Positions 44,116 through 63,857 of a stretch of 64,000 bases of DNA are shown piece by piece. Source of the stretch: Thiothrix sp. (GTDB taxonomy: Bacteria > Pseudomonadota > Gammaproteobacteria > Thiotrichales > Thiotrichaceae). A program made the position numbers and the translations under genes. The notes beneath the pieces are model-generated. The model did no database searches, had not been told where the DNA came from, and saw only the letters and a list, made by a program, of their open reading frames with translations. The stretch spans positions 1 to 64,000 of the forward strand of contig JAGRJD010000028.1 of NCBI GenBank assembly GCA_020442915.1, in the 5' to 3' direction. The number at the start of each line of letters is the position of its first letter. Positions within the stretch are counted from its first letter, which is position 1.

Positions 44116-45561
44116 TCAAGGTCGTCTGGAGCGCAGCAGGACACCCGCTGTCAGCAATACCAGCAGCAGCAGGTCTCTGGGGCTGAGGGAGCCACCACCA
44201 CCCTGCCCCGTGATCGTCGGACGATTGGTGCCGGTGTCGGTTCCGGTGTCGGTTCCGGTGTCGGTGTCGGTGTCGGTTCCGGTGTCGGTGTCGGTTCCGG
44301 TGTCGGTGTCGGTGTCGGTGTCGGTTCCGGTGTCGGTGTCGGTTCCGGTGTCGGTTCCCGCCCCACCATCCAGCACATCAGCACTGTCACTCAGGGGATT
44401 GCCAGCCGTCCAGTCACGCGGGGTGATGCTCAGGAAAGACCAGTGGGCATCCATGCGGGGGGAGTCTTCGGTACGTGGCATGTGATAAAATGTGGTACTG
44501 GGCCAAACGACGATATCCTGCCCGCGAATGTCCTCATTATCTGCCACAAATCCGGCCAGATTGCCGGCGCAGCCGTCCGTAACCGGATTGTGCGAGGCGT
44601 AAAGCTCACAGGGATTCTCACGGGTGACATAAAAATCGTTCTGGGTGAACGGCTCCTCATCCGGGCCGCTGTCACGGTGTTCAGCCTGGATCAGGCGGAT
44701 GTCATAGGACAGCGGCTGCCCCTCGATATTCTGCTGCCCGCCATCCACCACACGCCAGAAGCGCAGGGTCTCCGGGTCGACCGAGCGTGCACTCTCGCGG
44801 TTGAGACGTGTACGCTCCTGCAGCTGGGAGCTGTTGCCCTGAATGAAATTCAGCTCCTCGACATAATCATCATCCGGTGTCCCGTTCAGGTCGAAGTCCA
44901 GCTTCCAGAAAAAATTGTGCAGGTGCGCCAGCCCCACCCGGTTGCTGCTGATCAACCAGCCATGCTGCTCCAGGCTGGCGCTGCCAAAACGCTGCAGTGC
45001 GCCGGTCGCTCCCATGCCCAGATCAATGGCCCCGTTATCCTGAAAACGCCAGAGCGGAATGTAGTTATAGGCACCTACCCTGGACACACTGAACAGGCTT
45101 AATGCATCGCCCTGCACCACGCCACCATCCCAGGCAAGGGCGGTTCCGGTCGCCTCGACCTGCCGGCACAGCACGTTCTTGCTGTTGAAGGCCAGCAGCT
45201 CCCCGCCCGGACAGTCGTCATCCGTCAAGGCCGCCATGTAACCGCCACCCAGTCCGTAATCGGAAATATCGTGATAGCGGGCACCGTTATCATCATAGGG
45301 CACGTGAATCTGGGCCAGACCGGCCTGATTGAGTACCATGCGCCGCTCACCACCCGGCGGGGTGTAATGAATTTTGTGCAGCATGATGCCTTCACGGCTG
45401 CGATGCTCCCAGCACATGTCCCAGCGGGCCTGATTCGGCAGGGTGGCATCCATATAATACCGGTCCGAACAGTATTCGGCAGCCTGCAATCCCGTGGATG
45501 CAAGGCCGGTCAGAAGAATCAGGAGCAACAGCAAGCTCCCCTTGAGGGTTTGTGTATTCAT
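44116..45561 (-). CDS. Minimal copper-amine-oxidase-like secreted protein with GlyGly-CTERM-like tail
   Basis: A 481-residue exported protein. The signal peptide is [19 protein letters not shown]. Residues ~45-395 match only the catalytic domain of copper amine oxidases: Asp98 ([11 protein letters not shown], the catalytic base position), the cofactor region [10 protein letters not shown], His213 and His215 ([12 protein letters not shown]) and His360 ([11 protein letters not shown]) as copper ligands. The topaquinone Tyr is Tyr165, but its consensus neighbours Asn and Asp/Glu are Ala164 and Asn166, so cofactor formation is uncertain. Residues ~401-445 are a Thr-Asp-Gly repeat linker. The end, [19 protein letters not shown] followed by Arg-rich residues, is a GlyGly-CTERM-type sorting tail. 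Confidence 0.75.
44227..44358. repeat. Hexanucleotide minisatellite, 22 units
   Basis: Twenty-two tandem hexamers, mixing GGTGTC, GGTTCC and one GGTGCC, encode the Thr-Asp/Gly-Thr linker of the amine-oxidase-like protein. Unit length is a multiple of three, so slippage would change linker length without breaking the frame. Confidence 0.95.
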
Positions 45562-61667: not shown

Positions 61668-62424
61668 TCAACTGTAGCCGCCAATGATGGGACGTTTGCC
61701 CAGAAGAGGTCCGCTTGAGCAAGGGAGCGGGAGACAGGTTACACCCGGCCGGTGTTGTGGCCAATGCCGGCCCGTGTCAATTACGGGCTGGCCAGCAGCA
61801 AAACATCGATACCATGGAACCATTCTCGGCGTTCCCATGCCGGTAAACACAACCCCGCCGATCACATTAATAAAAAAACCATAAGGATAACCTTTTTCTA
61901 TATCACTTTTCTCCCCTGAAAAAACAAACTGCCTGAATCCCGGAATGGTGCAGTTGGTCGTCACCAGCGTGACAGGCTTGTTTCCGACCCAGGGCATGTT
62001 GATATGTTTGGCATACTGCGCTGTTGTAGCCCTGTACTGTTTGAGAAAATCATCCAGCGTTATCGACTTCAAGGTAAACTGCAGCCCTTTCGAGCATTCC
62101 TTGCGCCCGGCATTGTAGAGTTTGTCATTGAGGATGTTTTTGTCCCTCAGACTAATGAGGAAACGGCCATGGACGGCAAGGTATCTTTCAACATGATTCT
62201 GGTCCCACGTTGCAAGCGGTGTTGCATAAGATGGAAAAGAGTTGAGGCTATAACCCCCCCCCCTCAGCGTACCCAGAATGTGATACAGGTTGGGCAGGGG
62301 TGGCCGGCTGGTTCACCGACTCATACGGCCTGCCTTTGGGCTCTTGTGCCTCCGATAGGGGTGGCGTCATGCAACCGGCCAGCAGGACACTGGCCAGAAA
62401 TACGGAAAACAGCGATTGCTTCAT
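61668..62424 (-). pseudogene. Lipoprotein gene interrupted by a G10 tract (candidate phase-variable, off)
   Basis: From ATG 62424 a lipoprotein leader (LFSVFLASVLLAGC, Cys18) runs 58 codons and stops at TAG 62248-62250, immediately after ten G on the coding strand. With nine G (or twelve) the frame continues through YSLNSFPSYATPLATWDQNH and joins the downstream ORF (KSITLDDFLKQYRATTAQYA and on), giving 251 residues that end at 61668. No domain is recognised; the body has several aromatic and Cys residues. Base composition is visibly less GC-rich than in neighbouring genes. Either slipped-strand phase variation, fixed frameshift, or a read error explains it. Confidence 0.65.
62254..62263. repeat. 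Homopolymer tract C10 (G10 on the coding strand)
   Basis: Ten consecutive C on the plus strand within the lipoprotein gene, 53 codons after its start. The run is far longer than expected by chance in such a region and sits exactly at the frame break. Confidence 0.95.
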
Positions 62425-62511: not shown

Positions 62512-62859
62512 TCACTGGACCGTGAAATACAGGTTGGTACTGGAAGTATTGCCCGCTGCATTGCCGGCAATCACGCGCCAGGAGTAATTACCAACGGCCA
62601 GCGTCACGGCTGGACGAAAACTGCAATTCGTGCTGCAGGCTGCAGCCGATGACGTAATCCAGGACTGATACACAGCGACGTTGGTCGCCCGGTTCACTAT
62701 CTGCAGATAGTACTGGGTCGCGCCACTGGCTGCCCACCAGCTGTAGGTGGGAGTACGGTTGGCAAGGGTTCCGGAAGGCGCAACCGGAGCCGGTGCGGCA
62801 GGCGTGGCAGCCACACTCACGGTAAAACCGGTACTGCTGCTCCACGGGCCGTTGATGCC
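62512..62859 (-). pseudogene. Out-of-frame C-terminal domain fragment behind the metallopeptidase gene
   Basis: In a frame shifted relative to the upstream gene, 115 residues read GINGPWSSSTGFTVSVAATP, then YSWWAASGATQYYLQIVNRA and GNYSWRVIAGNAAGNTSSTN, ending at 62512. The W and Y/W spacing looks like fibronectin-type or similar beta-sandwich repeats common at the C terminus of secreted proteins. It has no start of its own. It was probably once joined in frame, directly or through a lost segment, to a secreted protein like the one encoded just upstream. Confidence 0.5.
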
Positions 62860-63857
62860 TGCAGACGGACCGGCTGGCCATTGTTCGCTGCCATGGCCCT
62901 GGAACCGGCAAAGAAAACCTGATCCGAGACAAAGGCATTACCCAGTACCAGCGAACCATTCGGGAACAGGGAGACATTGCGCAGGTTCTGCAGCACCGCA
63001 GTCCCGCTTTGTGTCGTTGTCCGCAAGCGCAGAAACTGATCATAAGATGACACACTTGAAGGGTATAGCCAAGAGCCAACCCCATTAGCTGCCCTGCTGG
63101 CAAACGTATTGATTCCCAGGCCATGCCCCAGCTCATGCAAAAGCGCCGAAGTCAGGTCCAGCCGGGTGGAAGGCGGCAGCACCTGCGGGTCATAATGCCA
63201 AAGTGTCCCGGCATCAACCGTAACCTCAAAATCAACATCAGCAGTATTCAGGTCACGATTGCTGACAGCATTGGCCAGGGCAATGGGAACCCAGAGCGGT
63301 ACTCCATCCAGGGTGATCGGCTTGAGCTCAGTCGCCCCAGCCATGGCAGCAGCTCCGCTAGCAAGCAGGCTCCAGCAGGCCCGAACCGTGACAGGCTGCG
63401 GGGAGTTGAGAATGGCACCCCAGATATTCAGGGCCGCCTGTACGGACTGGCGGGCTTCAGCTGGAAAAGTCCGGCATAAATTCCCTCCCATTTGCCCCCC
63501 GTTTGCCACATATTGAACATTGGCAAAGGTCAACCGGTTGGAATAATAGTCGCTGCGTTGCGCCGGGTCTTTGTCCAGTATCGCCTCTACCGGCGGCGGC
63601 ACATCAACCCAGTTGCGCAGCATTTCCTCAGTATAATAGCCCTCAGGCGGGGGATAAAGCACATGAACCGGGCCGGGAATGCTTCTGGTGCTCTGCTCAC
63701 CATAAGCATCAACCAGACTTTCATCACCGTCATTACAACCCGCCAGCATGACGGCAGAAAATACCATTAATGCCGACAGGAACTTACAATAATACCCTCG
63801 CCTTCGATGCGATGCGATGCGATGCGATGCGATGCGATGCGAAATAAATTGCATCAT
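62817..63857 (-). CDS. Lipoprotein with HELGH metallopeptidase motif; leader holds a pentanucleotide repeat
   Basis: A 346-residue protein. The ATG at 63857 has AAGGAG 7 bp upstream. Seven GCATC units follow and encode part of the leader (SHRIASHRIASHR), then VFSAVMLAGC gives a lipobox with Cys41. The body resembles secreted zinc metallopeptidases, with LLHELGHGLGINTF at residues 239-252. The third metzincin ligand (HExxHxxGxxH) is Thr here, so the metal site is atypical. The usual continuation after ANNGQPVRL is missing: the frame ends 14 codons later and a beta-sandwich fragment follows in another frame. As sequenced, the leader is in frame (on), but the C terminus is truncated. Confidence 0.7.
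   Translation of the reverse strand: MMQFISHRIASHRIASHRRRGYYCKFLSALMVFSAVMLAGCNDGDESLVDAYGEQSTRSIPGPVHVLYPPPEGYYTEEMLRNWVDVPPPVEAILDKDPAQRSDYYSNRLTFANVQYVANGGQMGGNLCRTFPAEARQSVQAALNIWGAILNSPQPVTVRACWSLLASGAAAMAGATELKPITLDGVPLWVPIALANAVSNRDLNTADVDFEVTVDAGTLWHYDPQVLPPSTRLDLTSALLHELGHGLGINTFASRAANGVGSWLYPSSVSSYDQFLRLRTTTQSGTAVLQNLRNVSLFPNGSLVLGNAFVSDQVFFAGSRAMAANNGQPVRLQASTARGAAVPVLP
63806..63840. repeat. Pentanucleotide repeat GATGC x7 (GCATC on the coding strand)
   Basis: Seven perfect tandem copies of a 5-base unit within codons 6-18 of the lipoprotein gene. Gain or loss of one or two units shifts the frame; both alternative frames reach TAA within about 25-40 bases after the repeat. This is the layout of contingency repeats such as CTCTT in neisserial opa genes. 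Confidence 0.95.

Follow-up and report, generated by a model that had tools for sequence, protein, structure and literature searches.

A ten-G tract divides a lipoprotein gene beside a repeat-bearing metalloprotease gene in Thiothrix: a possible slippage switch

Repeat-driven phase variation has been studied mostly in host-associated pathogens and commensals. The opa genes of Neisseria provide a well-defined arrangement, with a CTTCT pentanucleotide array located in the region that codes for the signal peptide. In the same genus, nalP encodes a surface autotransporter and contains a genic tract of 9 to 13 C, and a survey of phase variation in Neisseria applied cut-offs of at least nine bases for poly-G tracts and at least five units for pentanucleotide repeats (PMC5953494).

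The window analysed here, a stretch of 64,000 nucleotides from a Thiothrix sp. genome, carries a tract of each of these two kinds near its end. They lie in a metalloprotease-like gene and in the small lipoprotein gene that follows it, with the features below.

62817..63857, minus strand: metalloprotease-like lipoprotein ORF, with ATG at 63857, a HELGHGLG motif and the lipobox LAGC
63805..63842, minus strand: pentanucleotide array (CGCAT x7.6) in the protease leader, currently in frame with the ATG (ON)
62512..62820, minus strand: Ig-like (Big_13-like) C-terminal protease piece, out of frame with the protease body
62248..62424, minus strand: lipoprotein leader ORF of 58 amino acids, comprising a signal peptide (lipobox LAGC) followed by a Pro-rich tether; its stop lies just past the G10 tract
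62254..62263, minus strand: G10 tract (C10 on the plus strand), within the tether that follows the lipoprotein signal
61836..62252, minus strand: lipoprotein body, read in the frame adjacent to that of the leader and with intact homologous genes elsewhere in the genus
61668..61835, minus strand: final part of the open frame, which the homologues lack and which does not resemble coding sequence

Both the G10 tract and the array, with 7 pentanucleotide units, exceed the Neisseria survey cut-offs (PMC5953494) and thus have the length expected of hypermutable genic tracts. As in opa, the array of the partner protease (7 to 8 units) is situated in the leader, where gain or loss of a unit changes the frame, and the gene is read as ON in one species and as OFF in another. 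Unlike opa, which encodes an outer-membrane adhesin, the product is a metalloprotease-like lipoprotein, the repeat units are different, the organism is an environmental sulfur bacterium, and the array is known here from a single assembly per species. With nalP the shared element is a homopolymer of comparable length inside a gene for a surface-associated product; the difference is that the G tract occupies a small lipoprotein gene beside the protease rather than the protease itself, and that it is read from one assembly. The protease also shares the HExxHxxG motif of the NF038122 'metallo_LGF' metalloproteases, although the match is weak (E 7.4e-6; 26.2 bits, where the curated cut-off is 80) and a large internal part is missing from the copy in the window.

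The leader ORF of the lipoprotein gene starts with ATG at 62424 and encodes MKQSLFSVFLASVLLAGC, which by eye shows the n-region, hydrophobic core and Cys-ending lipobox of a type II signal peptide and, in a profile search, gives weak N-terminal matches to lipoprotein models. In the ORF listing for the minus strand, its TAG stop ends at 62248, separated from the G10 tract (62263-62254) by a single codon (TTA), in agreement with the initial annotation, which had placed the end of this ORF one codon after ten G. The body frame, one base out of register with the leader frame across the tract, is open from the tract through to a stop at 61668, and the only start listed in it is a TTG at 62072, so that the earlier description of a downstream ORF without a good start is also borne out. 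Frames were scored per codon by codon usage, trained on the long ORFs of the window. The N half scores -0.03 against -0.54 and -0.56 in the other frames, and the C half scores 0.14 against -0.77 and -0.74 in frames that hold 6-7 stops; over both halves, the other frames contain 2-7 stops. The two best-scoring frames are those that join when one base is removed at the tract, as had been proposed. No interruption other than the tract is present in the lipoprotein body, which is coding-like in composition over its entire homologous length. The register differs only at the tract, where a change in length would alternate full-length and truncated frames. A joined frame of 251 codons reaching 61668 had also been proposed, and its arithmetic is correct, but it is not coding to that end: the last ~55 codons (61835-61671) score -0.37, while the other two frames give -0.30 and -0.46, a non-coding-like result. 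Since this tail also lacks a counterpart in homologues, the gene body ends near 61836 rather than at 61668, and the usual stop of the gene seems to have been lost or displaced.

Homologues of the lipoprotein body are present in three other genomes of the genus (G004, G006 and G007), at 28-34% identity and with E values of 1.4e-12, 8.2e-11 and 5.1e-8, respectively, for the best match in each genome. The family profile, a model built from rows that include this sequence itself and these matches, covers the body at positions 50-182 of 189 (E 9.6e-57) and also detects remnants of the family. Homologues that keep the two halves as separate genes had been named as the observation that would contradict a single gene; all four intact homologues (G004 contig 8, two in G006 and one in G007) are single unbroken genes, 192-205 codons long, each with its signal at the N terminus. 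Because the homologues in the genus are single unbroken genes, the two halves are, on this comparison, one lipoprotein gene, present as an OFF allele in the assembled genome. None of the four has a G tract at the equivalent place or appears in the genus-wide list of G10 tracts; neither the tract nor another repeat is conserved at this position of the lipoprotein gene. Searches of the lipoprotein sequence against Pfam, NCBIfam and PDB gave no family match, and a contig database search with the body found no relative. The predicted structure of an intact G006 homologue (pLDDT 75.6, pTM 0.70) has a mostly beta fold; Foldseek returned no significant match for it, and its beta-barrel-like matches (best Z 5.4, rmsd 4.4, 122 aligned) are too weak to name a fold.

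The partner protease contains the HExxH zinc-binding motif (HELGH), which is conserved in relatives, and its CGCAT array sits in frame between the start and the lipoprotein signal: MMQFISHRIASHRIASHRRRGYYCKFLSALMVFSAVMLAGC. The pentanucleotide repeat attributed to this neighbour is real, and a related genome has a repeat of another unit in the equivalent position. In G006, a metagenome-assembled genome labelled uncultured Thiothrix sp. whose protease is 42% identical to that of the window, CGTCT x7.8 occupies the same leader position; the frame opened by the ATG there meets a stop immediately behind the array, and the body lies in another frame. Each is an array of at least five units in a coding region where copy number changes the frame. 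Different units at the same leader position of diverged proteins, one ON and one OFF, are as repeat-driven phase variation predicts. In a survey of these two units across nine genomes of the genus, the CGCAT and CGTCT arrays were each found at no other site. Among the 80 loci returned by a protease search from a three-row alignment, only the Thiothrix one has a pentanucleotide array (at least four perfect copies), and only this one has a clear lipoprotein homologue. In G006, both intact lipoprotein homologues are located directly downstream of a metalloprotease-Ig gene, in the same order as in the window, and this conserved place after the protease suggests that the lipoprotein is its partner, as an inhibitor, anchor or substrate-binding subunit. 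Because the lipoprotein gene is the conserved downstream partner of the array-bearing protease, the protease-lipoprotein cassette is likely a phase-variation locus. The recurrence of the repeat in the two genomes is good evidence that the protease is phase-variable, and the pentanucleotide is a stronger case for phase variation than the G10 tract. A second G006 protease copy (L010 1170-2649) begins with just two CGCAT units, which may represent a collapsed array, and its frame is broken beside a tandem 7-base duplication (ATCAACG).

Long G/C tracts are distributed across this 4.08-Mb genome in numbers close to those expected by chance. There are 45 tracts of at least nine bases (33 of 9, nine of 10, two of 11 and one of 17) against ~39 expected, and 12 of at least ten against ~10, the expectations being extrapolated from the run statistics of the window. 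A run of 10 in 64 kb, with ~0.16 expected on an order-3 estimate, is thus unusual in the window and not in the genome; tracts are not over-represented, and selection cannot be read from their length by itself. The frame is kept at about 20 genic tracts, of 9 to 17 bases: 17 were scored in frame on both sides, and those of tyrS, dnaJ and a lipoprotein gene are in frame by inspection; a gspK-like gene also belongs to the in-frame set. In relatives, tracts of at least ten are in frame in genes read as aroC, xerC, pntB, gspF, proC and ispE. Only two genic tracts of at least nine bases break a gene, namely the G10 described here and a G11 on contig 115, so that what is noteworthy about the G10 is the break of frame and not the length. 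The G11 (contig 115, 8290-8300) marks a change of frame in a very large exported surface protein of about 2,590 + 1,040 residues with GEVEDY-type and parallel beta-helix-like repeats, and is a further candidate for a break by slippage, again in a surface gene. A G9 on contig 68, flagged by the coding scan as a third frame-breaking tract, proved to be an ordinary boundary between two genes. The longest tract, a G17 on contig 139 (31679-31695), keeps the frame of a dnaJ-like gene, in the part that codes for its Gly-rich region, and the contig ends ~40 bases away. Elsewhere in the window, a hexanucleotide array (GGTGTC x21.5, 79% matches) spans 44227-44355, where copy changes would leave the frame intact.

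The reading tentatively preferred here is that the lipoprotein gene occupies the second position in a conserved surface cassette and is switched OFF by the length of the G10 tract, reversibly through slipped-strand mispairing, possibly as one of two independent switches. The cassette would then consist of a phase-variable HExxH-type metalloprotease lipoprotein, with the array in its leader, followed by the small lipoprotein. The length of the G10 in the tether would shift the body out of frame so that only a 58-residue stub is made, and slipped-strand mispairing at replication would change that length and toggle the gene between OFF and ON. Consistent with this, both halves are coding in two frames and split exactly at the tract while the homologues are intact; the order of the cassette is conserved and the protease repeat occurs in two species; and, with ~20 genic tracts in frame, the other frame-breaking tract also lies in a large exported surface protein. 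It is plausible that the G10 tract is the second switch of the cassette. The change in tract length, natural reversibility and selection for switching are the parts of this reading that we infer. Set against it are the lack of a G tract in any homologue, the near-chance frequency of long G/C tracts and their in-frame occurrence in housekeeping genes of relatives, the tail that suggests a lost stop, the broken cassette copies elsewhere, and the internal segment missing from the partner protease. Of the off-switch originally proposed, a single gene split at a slippage-prone tract stands; a maintained switch at that place is not borne out to the same degree.

The strongest rival holds that a G run present by chance slipped and inactivated a gene that had become dispensable, and that the whole cassette is degenerating without the tract being kept as a switch. 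The window protease aligns with the intact G006 protein over residues 19-237 and, in another frame, over residues 371-498, the latter match being the Ig-like piece (E 8.6e-5, under the curated cut-off). Equivalents of residues 238-370 are missing, some 130 residues of the catalytic and Ig region; with them go one Ig domain, a putative zinc ligand and two segments that relatives conserve, SxSH and LMxP; a search for the missing piece elsewhere in the genome did not find it. Remnants of the lipoprotein family also occur: G004 contig 20 retains only an N-terminal part (L091 1423-1710), G006 contig 56 retains only a C-terminal part (L092 about 1500-1920), and both are flanked by the same Uma2-like and LysR-like genes. 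Together with the broken G006 protease copy, these sequences indicate that copies of the cassette decay repeatedly in the genus. The apparent protease deletion, the overrun of the lipoprotein frame into non-coding-like sequence and the broken copies elsewhere make a pseudogene a serious rival, and the chance frequency of G/C tracts and the absence of this one from every homologue point the same way. Against decay, the lipoprotein body remains uninterrupted and coding-like apart from the tract, and the protease still has a long, in-frame repeat. A decaying pseudogene is accordingly rated nearly as likely as a maintained switch at the G10.

It is improbable that the gene is ordinary and intact and that its homopolymer was merely misread in sequencing or misassembled. 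Homopolymers are common error sites and the genome is a draft of 196 contigs, but a general homopolymer fault would break many genes, and the ~20 other genic tracts that keep their frame in the same assembly make careless assembly unlikely. It is far less probable still that the gene is expressed despite the break, through transcriptional slippage or ribosomal frameshifting at the G tract. Homopolymers can support polymerase slippage in general, and two frames do meet at the tract; however, recoding sites are normally conserved among homologues, the four intact homologues have neither tract nor split, and the terminator-like hairpin matches in the region, one of them over the tract (62257-62244), do not clearly exceed what shuffled sequence gives. 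Two separate genes can be dismissed almost entirely, as the TTG at 62072 that might start the second lies ~60 codons inside the homologous body and the homologues join signal and body in single genes.

The suggestion that two switchable surface genes sit side by side is well supported for the protease array, which recurs in G006, and less so for the G10, which is not conserved and belongs to a class of tracts at chance frequency. It is rather unlikely that this free-living filamentous sulfur bacterium, from a lineage not known for phase variation, has a surface cassette with two independent slippage switches, the pentanucleotide in the protease and the G tract in its partner, giving four expression states. 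In the library of papers searched, no text combines 'Thiothrix' with 'phase variation'. When a genome is GC-rich, a long homopolymer says little by itself: in this one, most such tracts lie in frame within housekeeping genes. Relatives of Thiothrix live in springs, sediments and activated sludge. If the cassette does switch, a leader-repeat cassette in these organisms would extend phase variation to an environmental filament, in which phages or predators, rather than an immune system, may select for switching.
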